Positions 3,114 to 34,883 of a stretch of DNA of 35,055 nucleotides are shown in pieces. The notes under the pieces are model-generated. The model saw nothing but the letters and a program-made list of their open reading frames with translations. It searched no databases and was not told where the DNA came from. How positions within the stretch are numbered: the first letter of the stretch is position 1; every line of letters starts with the position of its first letter. This DNA comes from Corallococcus praedator (GTDB lineage Bacteria > Myxococcota > Myxococcia > Myxococcales > Myxococcaceae), in assembly GCF_003612125.1 (NCBI RefSeq), contig NZ_RAWI01000053.1, positions 1 through 35,055 of the forward strand. The letters are read 5' to 3'. The translations under genes were made by a program, and so were the position numbers.

Positions 3114-6100
3114 TCAGCGCTTCCCCTTGCGCCGGGGATTCGCGAGCCCGAGGAGCGAGAGGAGCAGCAGGCTCATCACCGAGGCGCTCGTTCCTGAGCC
3201 ACCGCAGCCCCAGCCCTCGCCGATGACTTCATCGGGAACCGGAGGAGCGTCCACGCAGACCCCCTCCTGGCACACCTCGCCGTCGCCACACTCGGAGGGC
3301 GCGCCGCAGAACGTGTCAGGCGTGTTCGGGTCCGTCTCGCTCGAATCGAGCCGGCCATCGTGGTTGGCGTCCTCTTCGCCGTCCTTGCGCCCGTCCCCGT
3401 CCGTGTCCGCGTTGAGCGGATCCGTGCGGGTGCTCGGATCCGCGTCCGCCACGAACTGTTCCTTCGAGACGTCGGTCCCCACATGCGGCGAGGAGACGGC
3501 CATCTCCGTCCCATCGAAGAGCCCATCATCGTCACTGTCCGGGTCCCGCACGTTCGGCAGGCCGTCACCGTCCGAGTCCTCCGTGGGAGCCAGCTCGTGA
3601 CCATCGAGCACGCCATCATCATCCGTGTCGGCGTCGTGGGGGTCGGAGCCCGCCTCGAACTCGGCGACATTGGAGAGCGCGTCGTCGTCCGCGTCGAGCG
3701 AGGCGTCACCCGGTGAGTTCGGGTCGAACCCATGGGCAAGCTCCCACTCGTCGGCCATGCCATCGTCGTCGGAGTCGGTGGAGACGGTGACGGAGGTGCT
3801 GGCACTCTGACCGTCGGCCGTGACCCGGACGGTGTTGGAGAACGTTCCGCTGTGGAGGCCAGCGGTGAAGACCCCCGATGCGTCGAGGGTGCCGCCGCCG
3901 TTGACAGCCTCCCAGGTGGCAGTGAGCGGAAGCTCGTTGTCGAACGCGTCATAAGCCTTCGCGCTGAAGGTGATTCTCCCCTGGATGACCACCGTCGGGT
4001 TCTGGGGTGAGATGACCACGCGGTGAAGGGCGCCTGGCGCCACGACGACCGAGCCCGAGCCCGCGAGGCCGTGGGCCGTGGCGAGGACACTCGCCGGGTA
4101 GGTGCCAGGCACGGAGGTCGCGGTGAAGCGGCCCTCCGGGGTGATGCTACCGGCGCCGCGCAGGACCGACCAGACGGGCGCGATGGAGACCTCATTGCCC
4201 TCGGCGTCCTCTCCCTTCGCGCTGAACGGCTGCTCGTTGCGAGGTCCCAGTTGGGCGAGCGCGGGAGTCACCACGATTCGCGTCACGTCACCGGGGGCGA
4301 GCGTCACATCGGCGGAGCCGCTCATGGCGTCGAACCGCGCCGTCACCGCGCCAGGGTATGCGCCCGCCCTGCCGCTGGCCGTGAACAGGCCTTCGGCGTC
4401 GATGCTGCCCACGGCCGTCGAGCCGACCGACCAGGCCGTTGTTCCGGGCACGGTATTGCCCCAGGAATCGGTCGCGGTGGCGGTGAACCGCTGAGCCCCA
4501 CGCACCCGCAGGGCCGTGGACGCAGGGGTCACCTGCACGGTCTGGGTCGGTCCTGGGTTCACCGTGACGCTCGCTGTCGCGGACAGCGCACCGCTCAGGG
4601 CCGTGATCGTCTGGGTGAAGGTTCCCGCGACGGTGCCCGCCGTGAACACGCCGTCCGGACCGATGTCCCCACCGCCGTCGGTCACGAGCCAGGAGACCGG
4701 CGCCAGGGGCAGCGGGTTGTCGCAGCCATCCCGGACATTGGCGGTGAACTGCTGTGTGTCGTTGACGGACAGGGTCGTCGTCGCCGGAGCGAGCATGACC
4801 ATCGCCGCCGGGCCCGGGGTGAGCGTCACCGTCGCGGACGCGGACTGGCCATCCACCGTCGCGGTGACCGCACCCGGATGGGTGCCCGCCGTGCAGCTCG
4901 CCGTGAACAGGCCGCTCGCGTCGATGGTGCCCGCCGCGCCGTGAGCGGACCAGGTGATCGCCGCATCGGGCAGCGGGTGGTTGGAGGCGTCATAGGCCAT
5001 CGCGGTGAAGGCTTGCGTGCCCTGGACGACCAGGGAGGGCGCCGAGGGCGTCACGACGACATACGCCGCCAGCGGCCGGACATACGGGAAGGCTCCCATG
5101 TCCGAGCCATCGGAGGCGGCGTTGCGGCACGGCGACGTGGCCTGAAGCGAGAAGTCGGTAGCTCCCACGAAAAGCGGGTCGGCGGAGAGGCTGCCGGGAC
5201 CGGGCGTGACGTTGAGGTAATTGGCGGTGCCGTGGCCCCAGACGTTGTTGTGGATGACGGAGCGGTTGGGGCCGCTCGGATGCGAGAAGACAAGGCCATA
5301 CTCGCCGTTGGAGGTGATGATGTTGTCGGAGAGGGTGACGTCTCCGTTGAAGGGATACACGTTGACGCCCATCCCGTTGCCCGTGATGGTGTTGTGGAGC
5401 AGGGAGGACTGGCCGCCCAGCGCGATGGCGTAGGTGGTCGGGGCGGGAAGACCGTTGGCTCGCACCAGACTGTGCTCGAGCCGGGTGATGGTGTTGAAGA
5501 CAGACTGGAGGGCTTGAGCGCAGTTGCGCAGGGTGCCATGGCTGAAGGTCGTGGTCCCGCCATAGACGACCAGGCACTGCGCGGTGTCACCCTGGATGGT
5601 GGTGCGGTGGAAGGTCGACTCCCCCGTACTGTGGACGCCGACGATGCCCGCGTTGAGGGTGGCGAAGTCGAAGGTGGCGGAGCCCCGGACGTACACGCCG
5701 CGGGCGCCGGTGGCGGTGAGGGTGACGGGGGAGGCGGAAGTGCCCTGGGCTTCCAGGTGTCCGTCGATGAAGAGTTCGATCTTCTTCGTGTCCGTGCCGG
5801 CCCCGAGCGCGTCGGTGGCCGCGAAGGTGAGCGAGGCCCCTGGCGCCAGCGTGAGGGTGACACCCGGGCGGACGGTCAGATCGCCCGCGAGGGTGTTGGC
5901 GCCGGTGAGGGTCAGGTCCGAGACGAGGGCTCCCAGGAGGCCGGGGCTGGGGTGGCCCGCATAGGGGAAGGCGCCCATGTCGGTGCCATCCGACGCGGCC
6001 AGGCGGGCCGGCGAGTACGCGGTGAGGCGGAAGTCCGAAGCGCTCACGAAGAGCGGATTGGCGGAGATCCCCCCGAGCCCCAAGGGGGCACTGGGGGCCC

Positions 6101-9100
6101 AGACGACGCCGTTGCTCCACACGTCGTTGTGGTGGATGGCGCCGGGAGGGGTGATGGCGGAGTAGAAGGGCCGATGACCGCTGGAGGTGATGATGTTGTC
6201 GTAGATGCTGATGGAGCCGGCGTCGTCGCGGACGTTGAGGGCTTCGTAGAGGTTGTCGACGATCGTGTTGTGGACGACGTGGGCTGAACCTCCCCCTCTC
6301 ACTTCCATGGCGTAGACGCCGTTCCCCGGTGCGCCGCTGCTGCGAACCAGGCTGTAGCGAAGCTCGATGGTGCCGCTCGTGGTCCAGATCGCCTGGCGGC
6401 AGTTCTGCAAGGTGCCCTGGATGAAGCGGGTGGTGCCGCCCGTGACCAACAGGCACTGGGTGGAGGCCCCTTGGAGGGTGGAGTTGCGGAAGGTGGTGGC
6501 ACCGGTACTGGCAGCGCCGTAGAGGCCGGCGTGGAGGGTGGTGAAGTCGAGGGTGGCGGAGCCCTGGACACGCACGCCGTAGGCGCCCGTGGCGGTGAGG
6601 GTGACCGGCGCGTCCTGGGTCCCCTGGGCGGCGAAGGTGCCGTCGACGATGAGCTCGACCCTCGCGCGGTCCACGCCCGAGCGCAGGCCGTCGGTGGCGG
6701 CGAAGGTGAGCGAGGCCCCTGGCGCCAGGGTGAGCGTGACGCCCGGGCGGACGGTCAGATCGCCCGCGAGGGTGTTGGCGCCAGTCAGGAGCCTGTCGGA
6801 GAAGAGGACGCCCTGGAGCGACGGCGTGGGGGCCCCCGCGTAGGCGAAGGCGCCCATGTCGGTGCCATCCGAGGCGGCCAGACGGGCCGGAGAGTTCTCC
6901 GTGGGGTGGAAGTCCGAGGCACTGACGAGGAGCGGGTTGGCGGAGATACCGCCGGGCCCCAGGTCTGAGGAGCCGAAGTCACTGATGGAGTGACCCCAGG
7001 TGTTGTTGTGGTGGAAGACGCGCGTGGGCGTGTTGGTGTTCTCGAGGAAGACGCCGAAGCGACTGTTGAGTGCGACGATGTTGTCATGGAGGTCGACGGT
7101 GCCGGTGAAGCTCTTGATGGAGATGCCGCCGTAGGCGTTGCCGGTCACCGTGTTGTGAACCAGGGTGGCCGGAGCGCCCAGGACCATGGCGTACCGGGAG
7201 CCGGATTCGGCGCCGCTCGCGTGCACCAGGCTGGAGTGGAGCTCGGTGGTACCGCCGGTGGTGACGAGGGCCTGGAGGCAACTGCGCAGGGTGCCCTGGC
7301 TGAAGCGGGTGGTGCCGCCCGTGACGCGCAGACACTCGGTGGAGGCACCCTGGACGGTGGTGCGCTCGATGACGGAGGCGCCGGAGCTGACGACGCCGTA
7401 GAGACCGGCGTTGAGGGTCGCGGAGTCGAAGGTGGCGGAGCCCTGGACGCGCACGCCGTAGGCGCCCGTGGCGGTGAGGGTGACCGGAGCCTCTGGGGTG
7501 CCTTGGGCGGCGAAGGTGCCGTCGACGATGAGCTCGACCTTCGCGGTGTCCACACCGGAGCGCAGGCCGTCGGTGGCGGCGAAGGTGAGCGAGGCCCCTG
7601 GCGCCAGCGTGAGCGTGACGCCCGGGCGGACGGTCAAATCGCCCGCGAGGGTGTTGGCGCCAGTCAGGAGCCTGTCGGAGACGAGGACGCCCTGGAGTGA
7701 AGGCGTGGGGGCCCCCGCGTAGGCGAAGGCGCCCATGTCGGTGCCATCCGAGGCGGCCAGACGGGCCGGAGAGTTCTCCGTGGGATGGAAGTCCGAGGCG
7801 CTGACGAAGAGCGGGTTGGCGGAGATGCTGCCGGGGCCCGGGGTGATGGTGGAGGCGGTGGAGTAGTTGGTGGTGTGATCCCAGACGTCGTTGTGGTGGA
7901 CGGAGCGCGTGGGGGTGGTGGTGTTGGCGAAGCTGATGCCTTGGCTGCCATTGGACACCACGAGGTTGTCGTAGACCTCGACGGTGCCCGCGAAGCTGGC
8001 GACCTGGACAGCGCCGAAGCTGTTGCCGGTGAGGGTGTTGTGAACCAGGGCGGCCGAGGCACTCAGGGCGATGGCGTGCTTGGACCCCGCACTGGAGCCG
8101 CTCGCGTGCACCAGGCTGTAGCCGAGCGTGGTGGTGCCGCCCGTGGCGGCGAGCGCCTGCGTGCAGTTCCTCAGGGTGCCATGGCTGAAGTGGGTGGCGC
8201 CGCCCGTGACGCGCAGACACTCGGTGGAGGCACCCTGGACGGTGGTGCGTTCGATGACGGAGGCGCCGGAGCTGACGACGCCGTAGAGACCGGCGTTGAG
8301 GGTCGCGGAGTCGAAGGTGGCGGAGCCCTGGACGCGCACGCCGTAGGCGCCCGTGGCGGTGAGGGTGACCGGAGCCTCTGGGGTGCCTTGGGCGGCGAAG
8401 GTGCCGTCGACGATGAGTTCGACCTTCGCGGTGTCCACACCGGAGCGCAGGCCGTCGGTGGCGGCGAAGGTGAGCGAGGCCCCTGGCGCCAGCGTGAGCG
8501 TGACGCCCGGGCGGACGGTCAAATCGCCCGCGAGGGTGTTGGCGCCAGTCAGGAGCCTGTCGGAGACGAGGACGCCCTGGAGTGAAGGCGTGGGGGCCCC
8601 CGCGTAGGCGAAGGCGCCCATGTCGGTACCATCCGAGGCGGCCAGACGGGCCGGAGAGTTCTCCGTGGGATGGAAGTCCGAGGCGCTGACGAAGAGCGGG
8701 TTGGCGGAGATGCCGCCGGGGCCCAGTGTGATGTTGGTGCTGACGTCACGGGTGCTGTGGCCCCAGACGTCGTTGTACTGGACGGTGCGAGTGGGGAACG
8801 TGGAGCCTACCGCGGTGATGCCGTAGAGGCCGTTGGAGGCAATGACGTTGTCGGAGAGTTCGGCGGTTCCCGCGAAGCTGGCGAGCTGGACGCCGCCGAA
8901 CGGGTTGCCCGTGAGGGTGTTGTGGACGAGCCGGGCCGAGCCTTGCAGGTAGATGGCGTACTGGGACAAGGCGCTTGAGCCGCTGGTGCGAACCAGGCTG
9001 TAGCGAAGCTCCGTGGTGCCGCCGCTGGTGATGAGGGCTTGAGCGCAGTTCTGCAGGGTGCCGTGGCTGAAGGAGGTGGCGCCTCCCGTGACAATCAAGC

Positions 9101-10433
9101 AGGTGCTGGAAGCCCCTTGAAGGGTGGAGCGGGTGAAGGTGGAGGAGCCGTTGCTGACGACGCCGTAGAGGCCGGCCTGGAGGGTGGTGGAATCGAAGGT
9201 GGCGGAGCCGCTCAGCACGCGCACGCCATAGGCGCCGGTGGCGGTGAGGGTGACCGGAGCCTCTGGGGTGCCCTGGGCGACGAGGGTGCCGTCGACAATC
9301 AGCTCGGTCTTGCCCTTGTCGATCCCCGAGCCAAGGCCATCCGTGGTGGCGAAGGTGAGCGAAGCGCCGGGTGCCAGGGTGAGGGTGACACCGGGGCGAA
9401 CGGTCAGGTCACCCGCCAGCGTGTTGGCACCGGAGAGCGTCTTGTTGGAGAAGAGGACGCCCTGAAGCGTGGGGCTGGGATGGCCCGCATGGGCGAAGGC
9501 CCCCAGGTCGCCACCATCCGAAGCGGCGAAACGTGCCGGAGAGTATTCGGTGAGGCGGAAGTCAGGCGCGCCGACGAAGAGCGGGTTGGCGGAGATGCTG
9601 CCAGGACCTGGAGTGACGGTCGCGGGGCTGTAGTCGTAGGTGCTGTGGCCCCAGACGTTGTTGTACTGGACCGTGCGCGTGGGGTTGAGGGCGTTGGCGA
9701 AGTAGACGCCATGGTAGGTGTTGGAGGTGATGATGTTGTCGGAGACGTTGACGGTCCCCGAGAAGATGTTGATGCGGAGGGCGCCGTGGAGGTTGCCCGT
9801 GAAGGTGTTGTGGACCAGTTGGGCCGAGGCGAACACGTCGAGGGCAAACTGGTTGGTGGCACCGCTGGCGTGCACCAGGCTGTCGCGCAGGGACGTGGTG
9901 CCGCCGTTGGCGACCAGCGCCTGAGCGCAGTTGCGCAGGGTGCCCGTCTCGAAGGACAGGGTGCCTGAACTCACGAGCAGACACTGGGTGGCGGCGCCCT
10001 GGATGGTGGAGGAGCGAAGGGTGGTCCAGCCGGCGCTGACCACGCCGAAGCGCCCGGCGTTGATCGTGGTGGAGTCGAAGAAGGCGGAGCCGGTGCCCAG
10101 GACGCGCACGCCGTAGGCGCCCGTGGCGGTGAGGGTGACGGGTGAGGTGCTGGAGCCCTGGACGCTCAGCGTGCCGTTGACGATCAGCTCGGTCCGGGAC
10201 GCATCCGCGCCCGAGCCCGAGCTATCACTCGCGGCGAAGGTGACCTGGACCCCGGGCTGGATCGTCAGCGTCCGGCCGGAAATGATGGTCACGTCCCCCG
10301 TGATCACCCAGGGGTTGCCCGCGCTCGTCCACGTCGTGTCGACGGAGAGCGGCCCGGACACGTTGGTGGCGCGTGCAGCGGAGGGAAGAAGCACAGCGAA
10401 GAGGAAGAGGATCAGGAGACGAACTGGCGACAA
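3114..10433 (-). CDS. Giant secreted beta-helix repeat protein with Ig-like domains, TSP3-like calcium-binding region and MYXO-CTERM-like tail
   Basis: This is a cell-surface or secreted protein of about 2,439 residues. Starting at TTG 10433, it has an N-terminal signal peptide (MSPVRLLILFLFAVLLPSA). Six tandem modules of 293-295 residues then run to about residue 1785, each with the right-handed parallel beta-helix pattern (LTVRPGVTLTLAPGASLTF, LIVDGT, VTLTATGAYGVRV, LVHNTLTGN). Five Ig-like (BIG2-type) domains of about 85 residues follow to about 2215. Next is an aspartate-rich thrombospondin type 3-like calcium-binding stretch (DSDDDG, DADTDGDG), then a short Cys-rich segment. The last 33 residues are Gly-Cys-Gly-Gly, a hydrophobic helix and a basic end (RRKGKR), as in MYXO-CTERM tails. 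An upstream in-frame GTG at 10499 would lengthen it by 22 residues. The TTG is preferred because AAAAGGA lies 7 bases before it and the signal peptide then starts cleanly. Adhesion or matrix function is inference. Confidence 0.88.
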   Translation of the reverse strand: MSPVRLLILFLFAVLLPSAARATNVSGPLSVDTTWTSAGNPWVITGDVTIISGRTLTIQPGVQVTFAASDSSGSGADASRTELIVNGTLSVQGSSTSPVTLTATGAYGVRVLGTGSAFFDSTTINAGRFGVVSAGWTTLRSSTIQGAATQCLLVSSGTLSFETGTLRNCAQALVANGGTTSLRDSLVHASGATNQFALDVFASAQLVHNTFTGNLHGALRINIFSGTVNVSDNIITSNTYHGVYFANALNPTRTVQYNNVWGHSTYDYSPATVTPGPGSISANPLFVGAPDFRLTEYSPARFAASDGGDLGAFAHAGHPSPTLQGVLFSNKTLSGANTLAGDLTVRPGVTLTLAPGASLTFATTDGLGSGIDKGKTELIVDGTLVAQGTPEAPVTLTATGAYGVRVLSGSATFDSTTLQAGLYGVVSNGSSTFTRSTLQGASSTCLIVTGGATSFSHGTLQNCAQALITSGGTTELRYSLVRTSGSSALSQYAIYLQGSARLVHNTLTGNPFGGVQLASFAGTAELSDNVIASNGLYGITAVGSTFPTRTVQYNDVWGHSTRDVSTNITLGPGGISANPLFVSASDFHPTENSPARLAASDGTDMGAFAYAGAPTPSLQGVLVSDRLLTGANTLAGDLTVRPGVTLTLAPGASLTFAATDGLRSGVDTAKVELIVDGTFAAQGTPEAPVTLTATGAYGVRVQGSATFDSATLNAGLYGVVSSGASVIERTTVQGASTECLRVTGGATHFSHGTLRNCTQALAATGGTTTLGYSLVHASGSSAGSKHAIALSASAALVHNTLTGNSFGAVQVASFAGTVEVYDNLVVSNGSQGISFANTTTPTRSVHHNDVWDHTTNYSTASTITPGPGSISANPLFVSASDFHPTENSPARLAASDGTDMGAFAYAGAPTPSLQGVLVSDRLLTGANTLAGDLTVRPGVTLTLAPGASLTFAATDGLRSGVDTAKVELIVDGTFAAQGTPEAPVTLTATGAYGVRVQGSATFDSATLNAGLYGVVSSGASVIERTTVQGASTECLRVTGGTTRFSQGTLRSCLQALVTTGGTTELHSSLVHASGAESGSRYAMVLGAPATLVHNTVTGNAYGGISIKSFTGTVDLHDNIVALNSRFGVFLENTNTPTRVFHHNNTWGHSISDFGSSDLGPGGISANPLLVSASDFHPTENSPARLAASDGTDMGAFAYAGAPTPSLQGVLFSDRLLTGANTLAGDLTVRPGVTLTLAPGASLTFAATDGLRSGVDRARVELIVDGTFAAQGTQDAPVTLTATGAYGVRVQGSATLDFTTLHAGLYGAASTGATTFRNSTLQGASTQCLLVTGGTTRFIQGTLQNCRQAIWTTSGTIELRYSLVRSSGAPGNGVYAMEVRGGGSAHVVHNTIVDNLYEALNVRDDAGSISIYDNIITSSGHRPFYSAITPPGAIHHNDVWSNGVVWAPSAPLGLGGISANPLFVSASDFRLTAYSPARLAASDGTDMGAFPYAGHPSPGLLGALVSDLTLTGANTLAGDLTVRPGVTLTLAPGASLTFAATDALGAGTDTKKIELFIDGHLEAQGTSASPVTLTATGARGVYVRGSATFDFATLNAGIVGVHSTGESTFHRTTIQGDTAQCLVVYGGTTTFSHGTLRNCAQALQSVFNTITRLEHSLVRANGLPAPTTYAIALGGQSSLLHNTITGNGMGVNVYPFNGDVTLSDNIITSNGEYGLVFSHPSGPNRSVIHNNVWGHGTANYLNVTPGPGSLSADPLFVGATDFSLQATSPCRNAASDGSDMGAFPYVRPLAAYVVVTPSAPSLVVQGTQAFTAMAYDASNHPLPDAAITWSAHGAAGTIDASGLFTASCTAGTHPGAVTATVDGQSASATVTLTPGPAAMVMLAPATTTLSVNDTQQFTANVRDGCDNPLPLAPVSWLVTDGGGDIGPDGVFTAGTVAGTFTQTITALSGALSATASVTVNPGPTQTVQVTPASTALRVRGAQRFTATATDSWGNTVPGTTAWSVGSTAVGSIDAEGLFTASGRAGAYPGAVTARFDAMSGSADVTLAPGDVTRIVVTPALAQLGPRNEQPFSAKGEDAEGNEVSIAPVWSVLRGAGSITPEGRFTATSVPGTYPASVLATAHGLAGSGSVVVAPGALHRVVISPQNPTVVIQGRITFSAKAYDAFDNELPLTATWEAVNGGGTLDASGVFTAGLHSGTFSNTVRVTADGQSASTSVTVSTDSDDDGMADEWELAHGFDPNSPGDASLDADDDALSNVAEFEAGSDPHDADTDDDGVLDGHELAPTEDSDGDGLPNVRDPDSDDDGLFDGTEMAVSSPHVGTDVSKEQFVADADPSTRTDPLNADTDGDGRKDGEEDANHDGRLDSSETDPNTPDTFCGAPSECGDGEVCQEGVCVDAPPVPDEVIGEGWGCGGSGTSASVMSLLLLSLLGLANPRRKGKR
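7314..7828 (-). repeat. Near-identical 515 bp segment, copy A
   Basis: This block matches 8199-8713 at an offset of 885 bases, with only three differences by eye. All three are third-codon-position and synonymous (two GAG/GAA and one GGC/GGT). The flanking parts of the same modules are clearly diverged, which points to recent gene conversion or unequal recombination limited to this block. Confidence 0.92.
8199..8713 (-). repeat. Near-identical 515 bp segment, copy B
   Basis: This is the partner of 7314-7828 within the giant beta-helix gene. The encoded residues are identical, including the ERTTVQGASTECLRVTGG and LIVDGTFAAQGT parts. Confidence 0.92.
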
Positions 10434-10439
10434 GGCCGG

Positions 10440-10446
10440 TCCTTTT
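10440..10446 (-). promoter_or_regulatory. Ribosome binding site deciding the TTG start of the giant beta-helix gene
   Basis: Read on the minus strand, AAAAGGA ends about 7 bases before TTG 10433. No comparable site precedes the longer GTG candidate at 10499. This supports initiation at TTG, directly in front of the signal peptide. Confidence 0.6.
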
Positions 10447-10677
10447 GCGCGCTCCCCCAGGCGGGAGAGTGACGAAGAGTCGATGCCGCAAGGTACCACG
10501 CCGCCTGTTCAATCGGAGCCAGTGCAGGGGCCACCCCAGCGGGCCGCGCGGGCAATTCCGAGTGGGCCAGGATGGCACGCCCCAAGCGGTACTGATGGCG
10601 GCCTGAGGACGGCCGCGACCTTGTCCTCTTGCTCCAGCAGGTTGTACGCCTCCATCCCGCCATCCCCCTCATGGGGT

Positions 10678-10810: not shown

Positions 10811-13315
10811 ATGAGACTGGACCGGGTGGTCATCAAGAACTTCAAGTCCATCAAGATGATCGAACTGCGAATCCCCCAGAAGGATGAGCATCGACAGGGC
10901 TCTGCCGACTTCCTTTCCATTGTCGGGGAGAACAACGCAGGAAAATCATCCGTCCTCGAAGCCATCCGCTTCGCATGTACCGCCACGTCGAAATCAGCGC
11001 AGGTGCAGTTTCCGGGCAACGAACCAAGCAATGGTCCTATTGAGATTGAACTGGATTTCGACCAGTTCAATGAGAGCGACCGCGCTTCACCCGTTCTCCA
11101 GGAAAACATCTTCATGGAAGACGGGCGGGAAAAGTATCGACTCAAGCGGAGCTGGAGAACGGTTGGAACTGCCTCTGAGAACTCATCATACAACCCCAAC
11201 CGCCCACCCACGGATCATCTCACGGGGTGGACTGGCAAGAAGACCCTCAAAACCCTTCTTGAAGCAGACGAGCGATGGAAGCCCATCGCCGAACTCGTCG
11301 CCCAGGAGAATTCTACCCCTAGACCGCCAATTGGCGTGCTCATCAAGGCGGCGAGGCAGCTCAACTCACCCCTGCTTGAGACCCATCCGCAAGAACCGTG
11401 GGCAGCCCACCCGGGAAGCAGCGCATCGCATCTCGAAGCCATCCTGCCCAGCATCATCTACGTTCCAGCGCTTCGTGAAACCAGCGAAGAAGCAGACGTG
11501 GGCATGAAACAATCCTCGATTCGCAAAATCGTGAACTCCCTCTTTGAGCAGCAACTCGCAAGCCACGAGAGGGTCATCCGGTTCAGAGCCGCAGCAATAG
11601 AACTCCAGGATCTTTTCGCTACGGAGGGAAAACACCGGATCGTGACCTCCATCGAGGAGCAGATCACAGCGAAGTTCAAGGAACTCATCAACATTGGCGC
11701 TGAGCTCAAGTTCAGCGCTCCCGATGTGATGTCGGATCTCGCGAGCAGCACCGAGTTCAGGGTCCTGGATGGGGGCCTGTCCACGACACCGGACAATCAA
11801 GGCCACGGAGCACAACGCTCCATCGTGCTGGCGCTTCTCCAGATGTACGCCGAACAGCTCAGGAAAAGCACTGCACGTGAGCAGCACCCCATGTTGTTCC
11901 TGATCGAAGAGCCGGAAATCTATTTGCACCCTGCCATGTGCCGAAGGATGCGCGACACGCTGCTGAAAATCTCCCGAAGCGGCATCGGTCAGGTCATCTG
12001 CACAACGCACTCCCCGGTCTTCCTGGACCTCGCCGACCGTCACGACGGCATTGTCATCTTGAGGAAGAAGGCGGCGGCTCCGGTCGCCAAACAACGAACC
12101 CGTGACGTGTTCGACCAGACCGCCACCGACAAGGAGCAGCGGGCGCGGCTCCGAATGCTTCTGAGCTTCGATCCCGCCGTCAACGAAGCATTTTTCTCGG
12201 AACAGGTCTGCCTTGTCGAAGGAGACTGTGAAATCGCCGCAGTCGAAGCGGTCGCCAGACGGCTCGAAAAGGAAGGGAATATCAGCTGGTCCAAATACCT
12301 CATGGCCAGACGCACGGTCACCCTCATCAACTGCCGTGGCAAATGGACCATCCCTGCCTTCCAGAAGGTGCTCAGCGCTTTCGACATCAACTATCGCGTC
12401 ATCTACGACCTGGACGCGGGAGCCCAGGCCAACCAGGCCAACTCCCAGATCGAGAACCTCTTGTCGGAAAATGACAAGAGCCTGCCGCACGACCCGAACT
12501 TCGAGCAGTTCATCTTCGGCAAATCCTGGCGGAGCGACAAGCCCTGGCTCGCCACGAAGACCATCAATGAGGCTCCTCAACTCAATGCGCGACTCATCGA
12601 ATTCTTCGAATTCGCACTCGGGAAATCTGTCTCGGACCTGAAGCCGGACGCCGTGCCTCCAACCACTGAGAACACGACCGCTCCGCAAGTCCAAAGGCCC
12701 AGCCGTCGAAATCTCCGGGGAAAACTCAAGGAGTTCAAGGTTCCGTCCCAGGTCATCCAGTCTGCACAGCGCGTGGAACAACTGTTCCGCATCGCCGCAG
12801 GGCCGAATTTCGCGATACGTCCAGACTCCGATTCACCCTTTCAGCAACTGGAAGGGACGAAAATCGATGCATTCGCCATCGTCACGGGCTCATCCATGGC
12901 GGACACCCTGCACGACAACGACATCGTCGCGCTCAAGTTCCTCAACAAAGTCTTCCTGGAGTCTGTGCACTCGACCGACATCCCCTTCAATGCCGCGCTT
13001 CCAAGCCTCCTTGAGAATGATGGCATCTACGTGTTGGCTGCGAACGATTACATCGATCAAAAATCGTACACCATGAAACGCGTCAGGATTTCCACCCGCC
13101 CCGACGGGGCATGGCGCGGAGATATCTCCGCGGACAACCCGGACACGAACTGGGGCGACCGCGGTCATTTCGAGATCCGCAAGACGGATCGCATCCACTT
13201 CGCAGCACAAGTCATCGGAGTCGTTCGAAGAGACGAATTGGAAGGATTCTCCCCGGAGGCGATTGGGTTGACCACCATCCCAATGGAGCAAGAGCCCACC
13301 TTCGAGGAAGACTGA
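10811..13315 (+). CDS. OLD-family AAA ATPase-TOPRIM nuclease fused to a C-terminal LexA/S24-like peptidase domain
   Basis: The 834-residue protein has three parts. (1) An SMC/ABC-type ATPase, residues 1-415: Walker A GENNAGKSS 39-47, signature-like GHGAQRS 331-337, Walker B LFLIEEPE 362-369, switch His400. (2) A TOPRIM nuclease, about 463-620: Glu470 in VCLVEGDCE, and Asp533 and Asp535 in YDLDAG. (3) A C-terminal S24/S26 peptidase-like domain, about 655-834: Ser695 in VTGSSMADTL, Lys756 in YTMKRV, and an Ala663-Gly664 pair (FRIAAGP) that resembles the LexA cleavage site. OLD proteins cut DNA and act in anti-phage defence; LexA-type domains self-cleave when RecA filaments form. Putting both together in one chain is unusual. 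No helicase (GajB) lies next door. Base composition is lower in GC than its neighbours (one sampled line 31/60), suggesting transfer. Start: ATG 10811, after AAAGGG. A defence role is inference; the domain calls are strong for parts 1 and 2 and moderate to good for part 3. Confidence 0.88.
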   Translation: MRLDRVVIKNFKSIKMIELRIPQKDEHRQGSADFLSIVGENNAGKSSVLEAIRFACTATSKSAQVQFPGNEPSNGPIEIELDFDQFNESDRASPVLQENIFMEDGREKYRLKRSWRTVGTASENSSYNPNRPPTDHLTGWTGKKTLKTLLEADERWKPIAELVAQENSTPRPPIGVLIKAARQLNSPLLETHPQEPWAAHPGSSASHLEAILPSIIYVPALRETSEEADVGMKQSSIRKIVNSLFEQQLASHERVIRFRAAAIELQDLFATEGKHRIVTSIEEQITAKFKELINIGAELKFSAPDVMSDLASSTEFRVLDGGLSTTPDNQGHGAQRSIVLALLQMYAEQLRKSTAREQHPMLFLIEEPEIYLHPAMCRRMRDTLLKISRSGIGQVICTTHSPVFLDLADRHDGIVILRKKAAAPVAKQRTRDVFDQTATDKEQRARLRMLLSFDPAVNEAFFSEQVCLVEGDCEIAAVEAVARRLEKEGNISWSKYLMARRTVTLINCRGKWTIPAFQKVLSAFDINYRVIYDLDAGAQANQANSQIENLLSENDKSLPHDPNFEQFIFGKSWRSDKPWLATKTINEAPQLNARLIEFFEFALGKSVSDLKPDAVPPTTENTTAPQVQRPSRRNLRGKLKEFKVPSQVIQSAQRVEQLFRIAAGPNFAIRPDSDSPFQQLEGTKIDAFAIVTGSSMADTLHDNDIVALKFLNKVFLESVHSTDIPFNAALPSLLENDGIYVLAANDYIDQKSYTMKRVRISTRPDGAWRGDISADNPDTNWGDRGHFEIRKTDRIHFAAQVIGVVRRDELEGFSPEAIGLTTIPMEQEPTFEED

Positions 13316-33512: not shown

Positions 33513-34883
33513 TCACTCACCGCCCGTAATCAACCGATTCAACTTGGTATTCGGCGCGCGGATCTCCTTGGCGAGCCCCTCCAGTGCCTTCGTCAGCGCC
33601 GCCCTACATCGCTCCGTGGAGCTGCAATCTTTCGTCAGCCGATTCAAGGTCCGCAAGACCTCCTCGTGGTACTCCCGAGGGTGAGGCCCTTTGTGCCCTG
33701 GAACCCGCACTTTGTTCGCCGGATCATCGAGAGACATGCCTGCCTTGTCGAAGATCTTCTGGAACTGCGGAGACCACGGCCCACCACGGTTCGTAGCGCT
33801 CCACCACTTGTTCGAAGCGATGTGGTGCTCATGTCCCTCGCCATCCACACCACTCGCGACAGGAGGGCCCCCTTCTTCCCGCGCCGCCATCGCCATCGCG
33901 GTCGGCGCCAGGGCCAGGGTGATGACTCCATCCGTGGCCACCGCCACCGACTCCACCTGCGCCACCGCACCCAACCGCACCCCGGCCTGCTCCGCCGCCA
34001 CCACCGCGGCCTGTCCTGAACCCGGCAGCACCGGCACCTTCGAGGCCAGCGTCTGCGCCGTGCTGCCCACCGCCGCCGTGGCCAGCATCACGAAGGCCCG
34101 CGCCGCGTTTTCTCCCAGCACCTCCCCGTACTGCTCCCCCGCGTCGCGCACTTCATCGAAGCTCCTGGCCACCCTCACCTGCTCGGACAGCACCCTCCAT
34201 CCCCGGATGAGGTCCAACACCGTGTCGATGCCCAGGTAGCCAATCAGCACCACCGTCATCACCGCCGCGACCCCCTTCGACACCGGCTCCGGCAGTGCCC
34301 ACAGGCACAGGTACACCGTCCCCGTCGCCACGACGGTGGCGAGCACCGCCTCCCGGTTCGTCATCCCCACCAGCGCCTCCGCCGTCTCCTCCCACACCGC
34401 ATCCAAGGCAATGGCGAACGCCAGCGTGCGCCGCGCGTCCTCATCCAGCGTCGGCCTCACCTCCAGCAACTGGAGACAGTCCCCAGGCGTCTGCTTGCGC
34501 TGACACCACCGCCCGTAGGCGCGCGCCAGCTCCGCGTCCGCACCGTCCTCCTCCCCCAACAGTCGCAAGCGTGGAGGCTCCTCCACGGACACCAATCCCA
34601 GGCGCCCCCGGACCCGGGAGTACGCCTTCGAAGAGAAGGAGCCCGCGAACAGCCGGTACGCCTCTTCCCTCGGACGCACGGACACCGGCGCATCCTCCGC
34701 CAGCGTCTTCACCGCCTCCGCGAACGCGTCCTCCTCCAACCCCGCCGGAGCGCTCTCCGGCCGCGGCGAGTGGACGACAGCCGCGCCCCGTCCCGTGTCC
34801 AGGCGCACGACGCGCGCCGCCGAACACCCCGTGCCCAGCAGCACCAGCACCACCGCGACGGCCCAGCTCCGACACAAGGACAT
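33513..34883 (-). CDS. Lipoprotein AHH-nuclease toxin (SitA-like)
   Basis: This is a polymorphic-toxin lipoprotein of 456 residues. The signal sequence ends with the lipobox LLGTGC, giving lipidated Cys20. Residues 40-165 form a variable region. Two hydrophobic helices lie at about 177-197 and 204-226. The C-terminal AHH-type HNH nuclease domain has His351, His353 and His354 in GHEHHIASNKWW, then PQFQKIFDKAGM and the GHKGPHPREYH motif (about 396-406). An outer-membrane lipoprotein with a C-terminal nuclease resembles SitA toxins of Myxococcus xanthus, which are passed between kin by TraA/TraB outer-membrane exchange and kill cells lacking SitI. Start ATG 34883 is preceded by AGGA seven bases upstream. 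Delivery by exchange is inferred; the nuclease and lipobox are well supported. Confidence 0.85.
   Translation of the reverse strand: MSLCRSWAVAVVLVLLGTGCSAARVVRLDTGRGAAVVHSPRPESAPAGLEEDAFAEAVKTLAEDAPVSVRPREEAYRLFAGSFSSKAYSRVRGRLGLVSVEEPPRLRLLGEEDGADAELARAYGRWCQRKQTPGDCLQLLEVRPTLDEDARRTLAFAIALDAVWEETAEALVGMTNREAVLATVVATGTVYLCLWALPEPVSKGVAAVMTVVLIGYLGIDTVLDLIRGWRVLSEQVRVARSFDEVRDAGEQYGEVLGENAARAFVMLATAAVGSTAQTLASKVPVLPGSGQAAVVAAEQAGVRLGAVAQVESVAVATDGVITLALAPTAMAMAAREEGGPPVASGVDGEGHEHHIASNKWWSATNRGGPWSPQFQKIFDKAGMSLDDPANKVRVPGHKGPHPREYHEEVLRTLNRLTKDCSSTERCRAALTKALEGLAKEIRAPNTKLNRLITGGE

Follow-up and report, generated by a model that had tools for sequence, protein, structure and literature searches.

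An OLD nuclease with a third domain

The gene at positions 10811 to 13315 of a 35,055-nucleotide stretch of Corallococcus praedator DNA (contig NZ_RAWI01000053.1, hereafter the window) encodes an OLD-family nuclease that carries a domain resembling the self-cleaving S24 domain of LexA at its C-terminus. We tentatively propose, giving the idea slightly less than an even chance, that a solitary Class 1-type OLD nuclease acquired this LexA-type domain as a self-cleaving fuse, by which the enzyme would be shut off. A first-pass annotation made from the sequence alone had described an OLD nuclease fused to a LexA/S24-like peptidase domain. Its open reading frame (ORF), the length of 834 residues and the positions given for Ser695, Lys756, Glu470, Asp533 and Asp535 are all correct, and it mentioned neither the LexA-type cleavage motif RIAAG nor the recurrence of S24 domains on other defense enzymes.

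Judged from its sequence, the ORF codes for a Class 1-type OLD nuclease with intact ATPase and TOPRIM parts, to which a third domain is joined at about residues 655 to 806. The annotated intact AAA ATPase and TOPRIM are upheld by the matches to both domains and by motifs that are invariant in a six-row alignment (Table 1), where the three TOPRIM acids are also unchanged across the aligned homologues. The names Walker B and His switch are our assignment for residues 361 to 367 and His400, which we take to be these motifs. PADLOC ranks the protein highest as Old (1.8e-74), followed by AriA (2.5e-38) and GajA (5.9e-29), and the closest solved chain is the OLD protein of Thermus scotoductus (PDB ID 6p74, 1.4e-15). 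The best tail-less plasmid match is a 643-residue protein of Exiguobacterium plasmid pE73 with 35% identity over residues 1 to 605, which suggests that the tail was added beyond residue 605 or so. The guanine-plus-cytosine content of the gene is 57%, compared with 69% for the window.

Assignment of the tail to the S24 family

The sequence evidence indicates that the third domain of the OLD protein is a LexA-type S24 domain. All nine OLD tails match the Pfam family PF00717 (best E value 0.019; two other families each have one matching tail), and all nine also match the PHROG family "CI-like repressor" (best E value 0.0012). Profile comparison with hhalign points in the same direction. Against an alignment of 28 LexA proteins and five enzyme-fused S24 domains, the nine-row tail alignment scores 46.9 (probability 91.8) and a seven-row tail alignment 42.1 (probability 87.5). 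As controls, the best of 100 column shuffles each reached 19.0 (nine rows) and 26.8 (seven rows), the reversed alignments 12.3 and 11.8, and six stretches from the OLD part at most 12.4, with a stretch overlapping the tail at 35.7. The seven-row comparison is colinear: AAG, Ser, Lys and the last strand align in this order, the strand reading VIGVVR in the tail and VIGVYR in its counterpart. The LexA set derives from 31 loci, of which three failed the pattern and 28 were used for hhalign; six long S24 frames were fetched, and one of them (L071), a signal peptidase, was removed. Alignment A5 holds 13 of the 28 LexA proteins, each picked for AAG, and four of the five fused domains (L067, a near-copy of L066, was omitted), meaning that the presence of AAG was selected for in its LexA rows and was not selected for in the OLD tails.

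A model of residues 640 to 815, built from an alignment that contained LexA rows, has a predicted local distance difference test score (pLDDT) of 69.6 and a predicted template modeling score of 0.70. When this LexA-informed model is searched with VIA-align, the 30 top-ranking matches consist entirely of LexA, UmuD and phage repressors (CI), the best match being LexA (PDB ID 1jhe; Z 11.1, 3.4 Å, 120 residues), which we take to be in its cleavable conformation, and signal peptidases and a homologue reach Z 5.9 compared with 11.1 for LexA. The S24-type third domain of the first-pass annotation, which had described an S24/S26 Ser-Lys dyad, is borne out by PF00717, PHROG, the profile comparison and the tail model, and of S24 and S26 the LexA side (S24) appears to fit the tail best. 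Its conserved extent is about residues 655 to 806; residues 807 to 834 show poor conservation in three of five close pairs.

Other results run against this assignment and speak for the alternative that the tail is not an S24 domain and that its Ser and Lys are coincidental. On a single tail, the Pfam S24 match has 12.8 bits and an E value of 0.1, under the cut-off of 23.3, and an hmmsearch of the PDB sequences with the seven-row tail profile returned no S24 chain and two chance matches. The hhalign comparison with the 28 LexA proteins alone was weak (scores 28.4 and 21.6, probabilities 13.4 and 2.2), the signal being strong only once the five enzyme-fused S24 domains had diversified the LexA profile (28 + 5 rows). 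A plain Foldseek search with the tail model was uninformative, with a best E value of 0.13, which was not to LexA, and no LexA in the first 50 rows ordered by E value, and in a full-length AlphaFold model from six rows without LexA the tail was unusable (pLDDT about 21 to 34). We nevertheless give almost no credence to a coincidence, since PF00717, the CI-like PHROG family, the profile comparison and the model agree on S24/CI-like repressors and the motifs follow the colinear order AAG, Ser, Lys and last strand.

Purifying selection acts on the S24 part as it does on the nuclease. In five pairs, the ratio of nonsynonymous to synonymous substitution rates (dN/dS) is 0.12 to 0.18 for the S24 part and 0.14 to 0.20 for the OLD part, where one of the five pairs has a dS above 1 and a sixth pair (G049-G139) is saturated and yields no ratio.

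Predicted cleavage motif and catalytic dyad

LexA-like proteins autocleave between a conserved Ala and Gly (PMC7101444). The OLD tail has RIAAG (A663-G664) where the LexA of the same host has KVAAG, and the two AAG motifs align. Such a LexA-like motif beside the dyad makes self-cleavage a more specific prediction than the dyad alone would. In seven of the nine homologues, the Ser comes exactly 31 residues after the Gly of AAG, compared with 37 in the host's own LexA, and the spacing from Ser to Lys or Arg is 61 residues in all nine, compared with 37 in the LexA, owing to an insertion.

As for conservation of the dyad among homologues, the Ser proposed by the first-pass annotation is present in nine of nine, whereas the Lys is kept in seven and replaced by Arg in two (G049 and G139). 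AAG and Lys occur in the same seven homologues, across which AAG, Ser and Lys are unchanged. The remaining two (loci L009 and L022) lack AAG and retain the Ser and the domain; G049 is 39% identical to the window protein overall. They are sister rows with a support of 0.992, indicating that Lys and AAG were lost in one event and not in two. Their S24 domains are 69% identical to each other and their OLD parts 74%. Keeping the domain without Lys and AAG implies that it can be useful without standard self-cleavage, which weighs against a fuse and favors a reading in which S24 is mainly a dimerization or RecA-docking module steering the nuclease, with self-cleavage minor or an ancestral remnant. 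We regard such a module as distinctly unlikely, given that none of the other seven homologues departs from AAG, Ser and Lys and that, among 25 S24 domains fused to other enzymes, 19 have AAAG and all 25 have the Ser. The G049 and G139 tails are perhaps a non-cleaving form of S24.

Table 1. Features of the OLD-S24 gene, with window positions and the basis for each
Feature	Residues	Positions	Strand	Basis
Whole gene: OLD ATPase-TOPRIM nuclease with C-terminal LexA-type S24 domain	834 in all	10811..13315	+	ORF, Pfam, PADLOC
ABC-type ATPase (AAA_15)	1-404	10811..12022	+	Pfam, E 8.3e-32
Walker A, GENNAGKS	39-46	10925..10948	+	GxNNxGKS invariant in six-row alignment
Walker B, MLFLIEE	361-367	11891..11911	+	Two Glu invariant in six rows
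His switch	400	12008..12010	+	Invariant in six rows
TOPRIM with Glu470, Asp533, Asp535	461-535	12191..12415	+	PF20469, E 3.5e-13
Variable linker	606-650	12626..12760	+	dN/dS 0.17-0.33 in five pairs; RRN.R invariant in nine tails
LexA-type S24 domain	655-806	12773..13228	+	Pfam, PHROG, profile comparison, model, dN/dS
Predicted self-cleavage motif Ala-Ala-Gly, cut between 663 and 664	662-664	12794..12802	+	Alignment with LexA motif
Predicted nucleophile Ser (TGSSM)	695	12893..12895	+	Nine of nine homologues
Predicted general base Lys (YTMKRV)	756	13076..13078	+	Lys in seven of nine, Arg in two

S24 domains on other enzymes of Myxococcota

Long S24-bearing ORFs in the phylum include other DNA-acting enzymes, which were named from Pfam and PADLOC. 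They comprise type I R proteins (HSDR_N, SWI2_SNF2), a type III Res protein (L119; PADLOC REase_III, 1153 bits), a HIT-PLD-ResIII helicase (L117) that is like type IV enzymes and whose relative L128 has DUF3427 after the S24 domain, and NERD-UvrD proteins. The type I R, type III Res and PLD-helicase proteins share an SF2-type helicase part, and the enzyme cores otherwise differ. In full-length frames of the PLD-helicase type, 93 to 366 residues follow the S24 domain.

The 25 fused domains (5 + 20) were picked for their long frames and do not amount to a survey; L115 was placed by its AAG pattern, L130 is cut short, and four of 30 loci with a wrong regular-expression match and one incomplete locus were left out of the counts. 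The Lys stands in the aligned column in 23 of the 25 and one place off in two. Apart from AAAG, the motif is ACG in two, AAAT in two and AAAS in one, and it is cut short in one. Thirteen of the domains fall into one cluster, and many are orthologous. The Pfam cut-off is passed by the fused S24 domain in four of the seven proteins scanned (best 2.9e-13), whereas the OLD tail is below it.

Fused loci include L066:1289-3868, L068:3077-6676, L117:1278-5504, L119:728-4288 and L126:733-4284, with NERD-UvrD, type I R, PLD-helicase and type III Res proteins among them. L126 and L127 have AAAT in place of AAAG, and the S24 domain of L126 is invisible to Pfam. Halomonas plasmid DNA holds a stretch that is 55.6% identical to the L119 tail. 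On the plasmid of Halomonas sp. PA16-9 (L084:2938-5429, + strand), a helicase-like frame, recognized by eye, is followed by an S24 domain (IAAG, ESM, TVK) in a different frame.

Proposed shut-off mechanism and its alternatives

In the shut-off mechanism that we tentatively favor, the S24 domain would sever the chain to which it belongs between Ala663 and Gly664 in response to RecA filaments, as happens with LexA, UmuD and CI. The cut would leave a nuclease half ending in -LFRIAA, resembling the N-terminal half of LexA, and this half would then be removed or disarmed while the host repairs its own DNA. With a phage that disables repair, no RecA filaments would form and the nuclease would stay armed. 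The outcome would be a built-in restriction alleviation. The first-pass suggestion of a damage or phage sensor built into the chain is, as far as the sequence allows, plausible.

Shut-off is favored because cleaved LexA-like proteins expose degrons, the N-terminal half of LexA being degraded via its exposed end (PMC5742171, PMC10584840), and the nuclease half would end in -RIAA. The exposed end of the LexA half, which that of the nuclease half would resemble, is a ClpXP degron. The removal of a restriction nuclease at times of damage is also known, with ClpXP degrading HsdR of type IA and IB systems during damage repair (PMC12707154), and one explanation would cover five kinds of enzyme. P2 Old becomes active when RecBC is inhibited (PMC13261556), which fits shut-off in that there would be no RecA filament, no cut and an armed nuclease.

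A wider version of the proposal, which we consider possible though doubtful, is that the self-cleaving LexA-type S24 domain is of general use, as a fuse that can be fitted to several kinds of defense enzyme that attack DNA: OLD, NERD-UvrD and type IV-like PLD-helicase proteins, type I R and type III Res. RecA filaments on damaged host DNA would trigger the self-cut and a degron would be exposed, leaving immunity off during repair and on when a phage blocks RecBCD or RecA. If this is true for restriction enzymes, immune effectors would join repressors and polymerase subunits among the proteins subject to SOS self-cleavage, and restriction alleviation would be written into the enzyme itself.

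Further points weigh against shut-off. A host tRNA is reported as the target that P2 Old cleaves, and YbjD acts regardless of RecBC and without its TOPRIM (PMC13261556), so that the analogy with restriction may fail here. Being part of the cleavage motif, the Ala-Ala before the Gly offers no separate evidence of a degron. The cut predicted from the sequence, between two folded parts, would leave the nuclease whole, and activation would fit this anatomy equally. In that case, the S24 tail would keep the OLD enzyme inactive or wrongly oligomeric, and a self-cut triggered by RecA filaments that form upon phage attack or damage would free a toxic nuclease as an abortive-infection switch. This is the chief alternative to shut-off. 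The cut site would lie beyond the nuclease and beside the variable linker, and S24 domains dimerize in LexA and CI. OLD enzymes are also effectors of several defense systems (PMC10568477). Activation by cleavage would, however, arm the nuclease on ordinary DNA damage, it accounts poorly for S24 domains on subunits of type I and type III restriction enzymes, in which methylation already marks self, and the end that would be exposed resembles that of the LexA N-terminal half, which makes it rather unlikely in our view.

IrvR, a LexA-like protein, autocleaves constitutively and independently of RecA (PMC7101444). This weighs against a RecA-triggered fuse and shows that constitutive self-processing exists, in which the tail would help in folding or assembly and then be removed after translation with no signal needed. 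That the domain is no less conserved than the enzyme is easier to reconcile with a lasting regulatory role, and we give little credence to constitutive removal.

The shut-off proposal touches on how cells keep their own nucleases off self and on what signals a Class 1 OLD protein to act, and having the nuclease and an SOS switch on one chain makes both questions directly testable. The OLD review (PMC10568477) raises the question of whether Class 1 OLD proteins can act in defense alone.

Comparison with known systems

The OLD-S24 protein is like other Class 1 OLD proteins (P2 Old, the T. scotoductus OLD and Escherichia coli YbjD) in being encoded by a single gene, in the order of ABC ATPase and TOPRIM, and in keeping the catalytic residues. 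Described Class 1 OLD proteins consist of ATPase and TOPRIM (PMC10568477), YbjD spanning residues 1 to 552 (PMC13261556), whereas OLD-S24 has about 200 more residues with the S24 domain. LexA, UmuD and phage CI (family S24) share the Ser-Lys dyad and the upstream Ala-Gly and, according to the tail model, would have the closest fold; their effector half is a DNA-binding repressor, whereas that of OLD-S24 is a nuclease. The Myxococcota restriction and defense enzymes with S24 domains likewise combine a DNA-acting enzyme with AAG, Ser and Lys, on other catalytic cores.

Gabija GajA (Class 2 OLD) shares the ATPase-TOPRIM core and is a weaker PADLOC match than Old. Gabija has a GajB-type helicase partner and Retron OLD (Class 3) an adjacent reverse transcriptase and msr RNA; no GajB-type UvrD helicase or reverse transcriptase is found among the 17 window proteins scanned, and Rfam gives no match, so that no msr RNA is seen in the window. 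The proposed outcome is similar to HsdR/ClpXP restriction alleviation, where the nuclease is removed upon damage to the cell's own DNA (PMC12707154). There, ClpXP acts on the assembled, translocating enzyme, whereas the trigger would lie within the chain of OLD-S24.

The first-pass annotation knew of no described system with this architecture, and we found no account of OLD-S24 in the open-licence literature, which was searched mostly by title and the start of the abstract. There, "OLD family nuclease" with "S24" yields only papers on other subjects by title, DUF3427 together with S24 was not found, and "S24 peptidase" is absent from the restriction literature among the matches listed. Neither "S24" nor "peptidase" appears in the available portions of the OLD review (PMC10568477), nor do "peptidase" and "LexA" in those of PMC12796447 or "S24" and "LexA" in those of the review PMC12707154.

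Distribution and genomic context

The search for other OLD proteins with the same tail, which the first-pass annotation had suggested, found the OLD-S24 architecture in 9 of 195 Myxococcota genomes and 3 of 90 genera, with contexts differing among the genera. It accounts for 9 of the 43 OLD-like TOPRIM matches in the phylum, and a tail profile run over the Myxococcota genomes gave no OLD-S24 protein beyond these nine. Nine long-frame OLD loci were also inspected by regular expression, which read three, none with the S24 pattern, and gave no reading for the other six.

A search of genome contigs gave one full relative, an 88% identical copy in Corallococcus terminator, and one further match of 30 residues. 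The plasmid records include 111 matches, none reaching 80% coverage; eight phage records match the OLD part only, the tail alone has no plasmid match, and the viral contigs have no match. These plasmid, phage, viral and genome-contig searches reach mainly close relatives, and a restriction to Myxococcota is not thereby established.

Within Corallococcus, the gene is present in 4 of 16 genomes, each copy being a few genes from msrA, and among four gene-lacking genomes that were fetched, msrA directly adjoins the next conserved gene in G011 and G013. Outside Corallococcus, the gene occupies other loci with varying neighbors. The varying location and neighbors fit an accessory, single-gene Class 1 OLD. 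The neighbor comparison used a crude gene caller, which missed the OLD gene of G049 (L079) and left that flank uninformative. A GFO/IDH/MocA oxidoreductase gene adjoins OLD-S24 in G004 and G139 and is also found at the G001 Corallococcus locus, which is without OLD-S24; we did not accept it as a fixed partner, as the family is large. A crude LexA-box scan, based on what we take to be the consensus, found no site near the gene, and it is uninformative because it found none at the lexA locus either.

In a tenth genome, G152 (L083, gene 7924-10149, - strand), an OLD N-terminal part runs into unrelated sequence at the TOPRIM and is broken or rearranged; DUF2169 and PAAR-like genes are close by, and the flanks are common with the intact G148 locus. 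In G004 (L012:1514-1666, + strand), 51 residues within a 119-residue frame are 53% identical to tail residues 748 to 798, perhaps the remnant of a second tail. Near the OLD gene of G139, a large protein (L080:12087-17315, + strand) has phosphorylase-superfamily and TPR domains and a sub-threshold STAND NTPase match, and is similar to PADLOC effector models.

In the window, the OLD-S24 gene is flanked by the genes for a beta-helix protein and an Mpo1-like protein. The former (3114-10499, - strand) encodes a 2461-residue right-handed beta-helix protein that repeats internally at the DNA level, and it sits between an M28 peptidase gene and the OLD gene, being absent at this place in C. terminator (L003). 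The protein encoded at 33513-34883 (- strand) has a C-terminal AHH nuclease domain of the HNH superfamily (2.5e-23) and is possibly a polymorphic toxin; the protein at L081:10267-11622, which adjoins the OLD gene in G146, falls into the same BLAST cluster.

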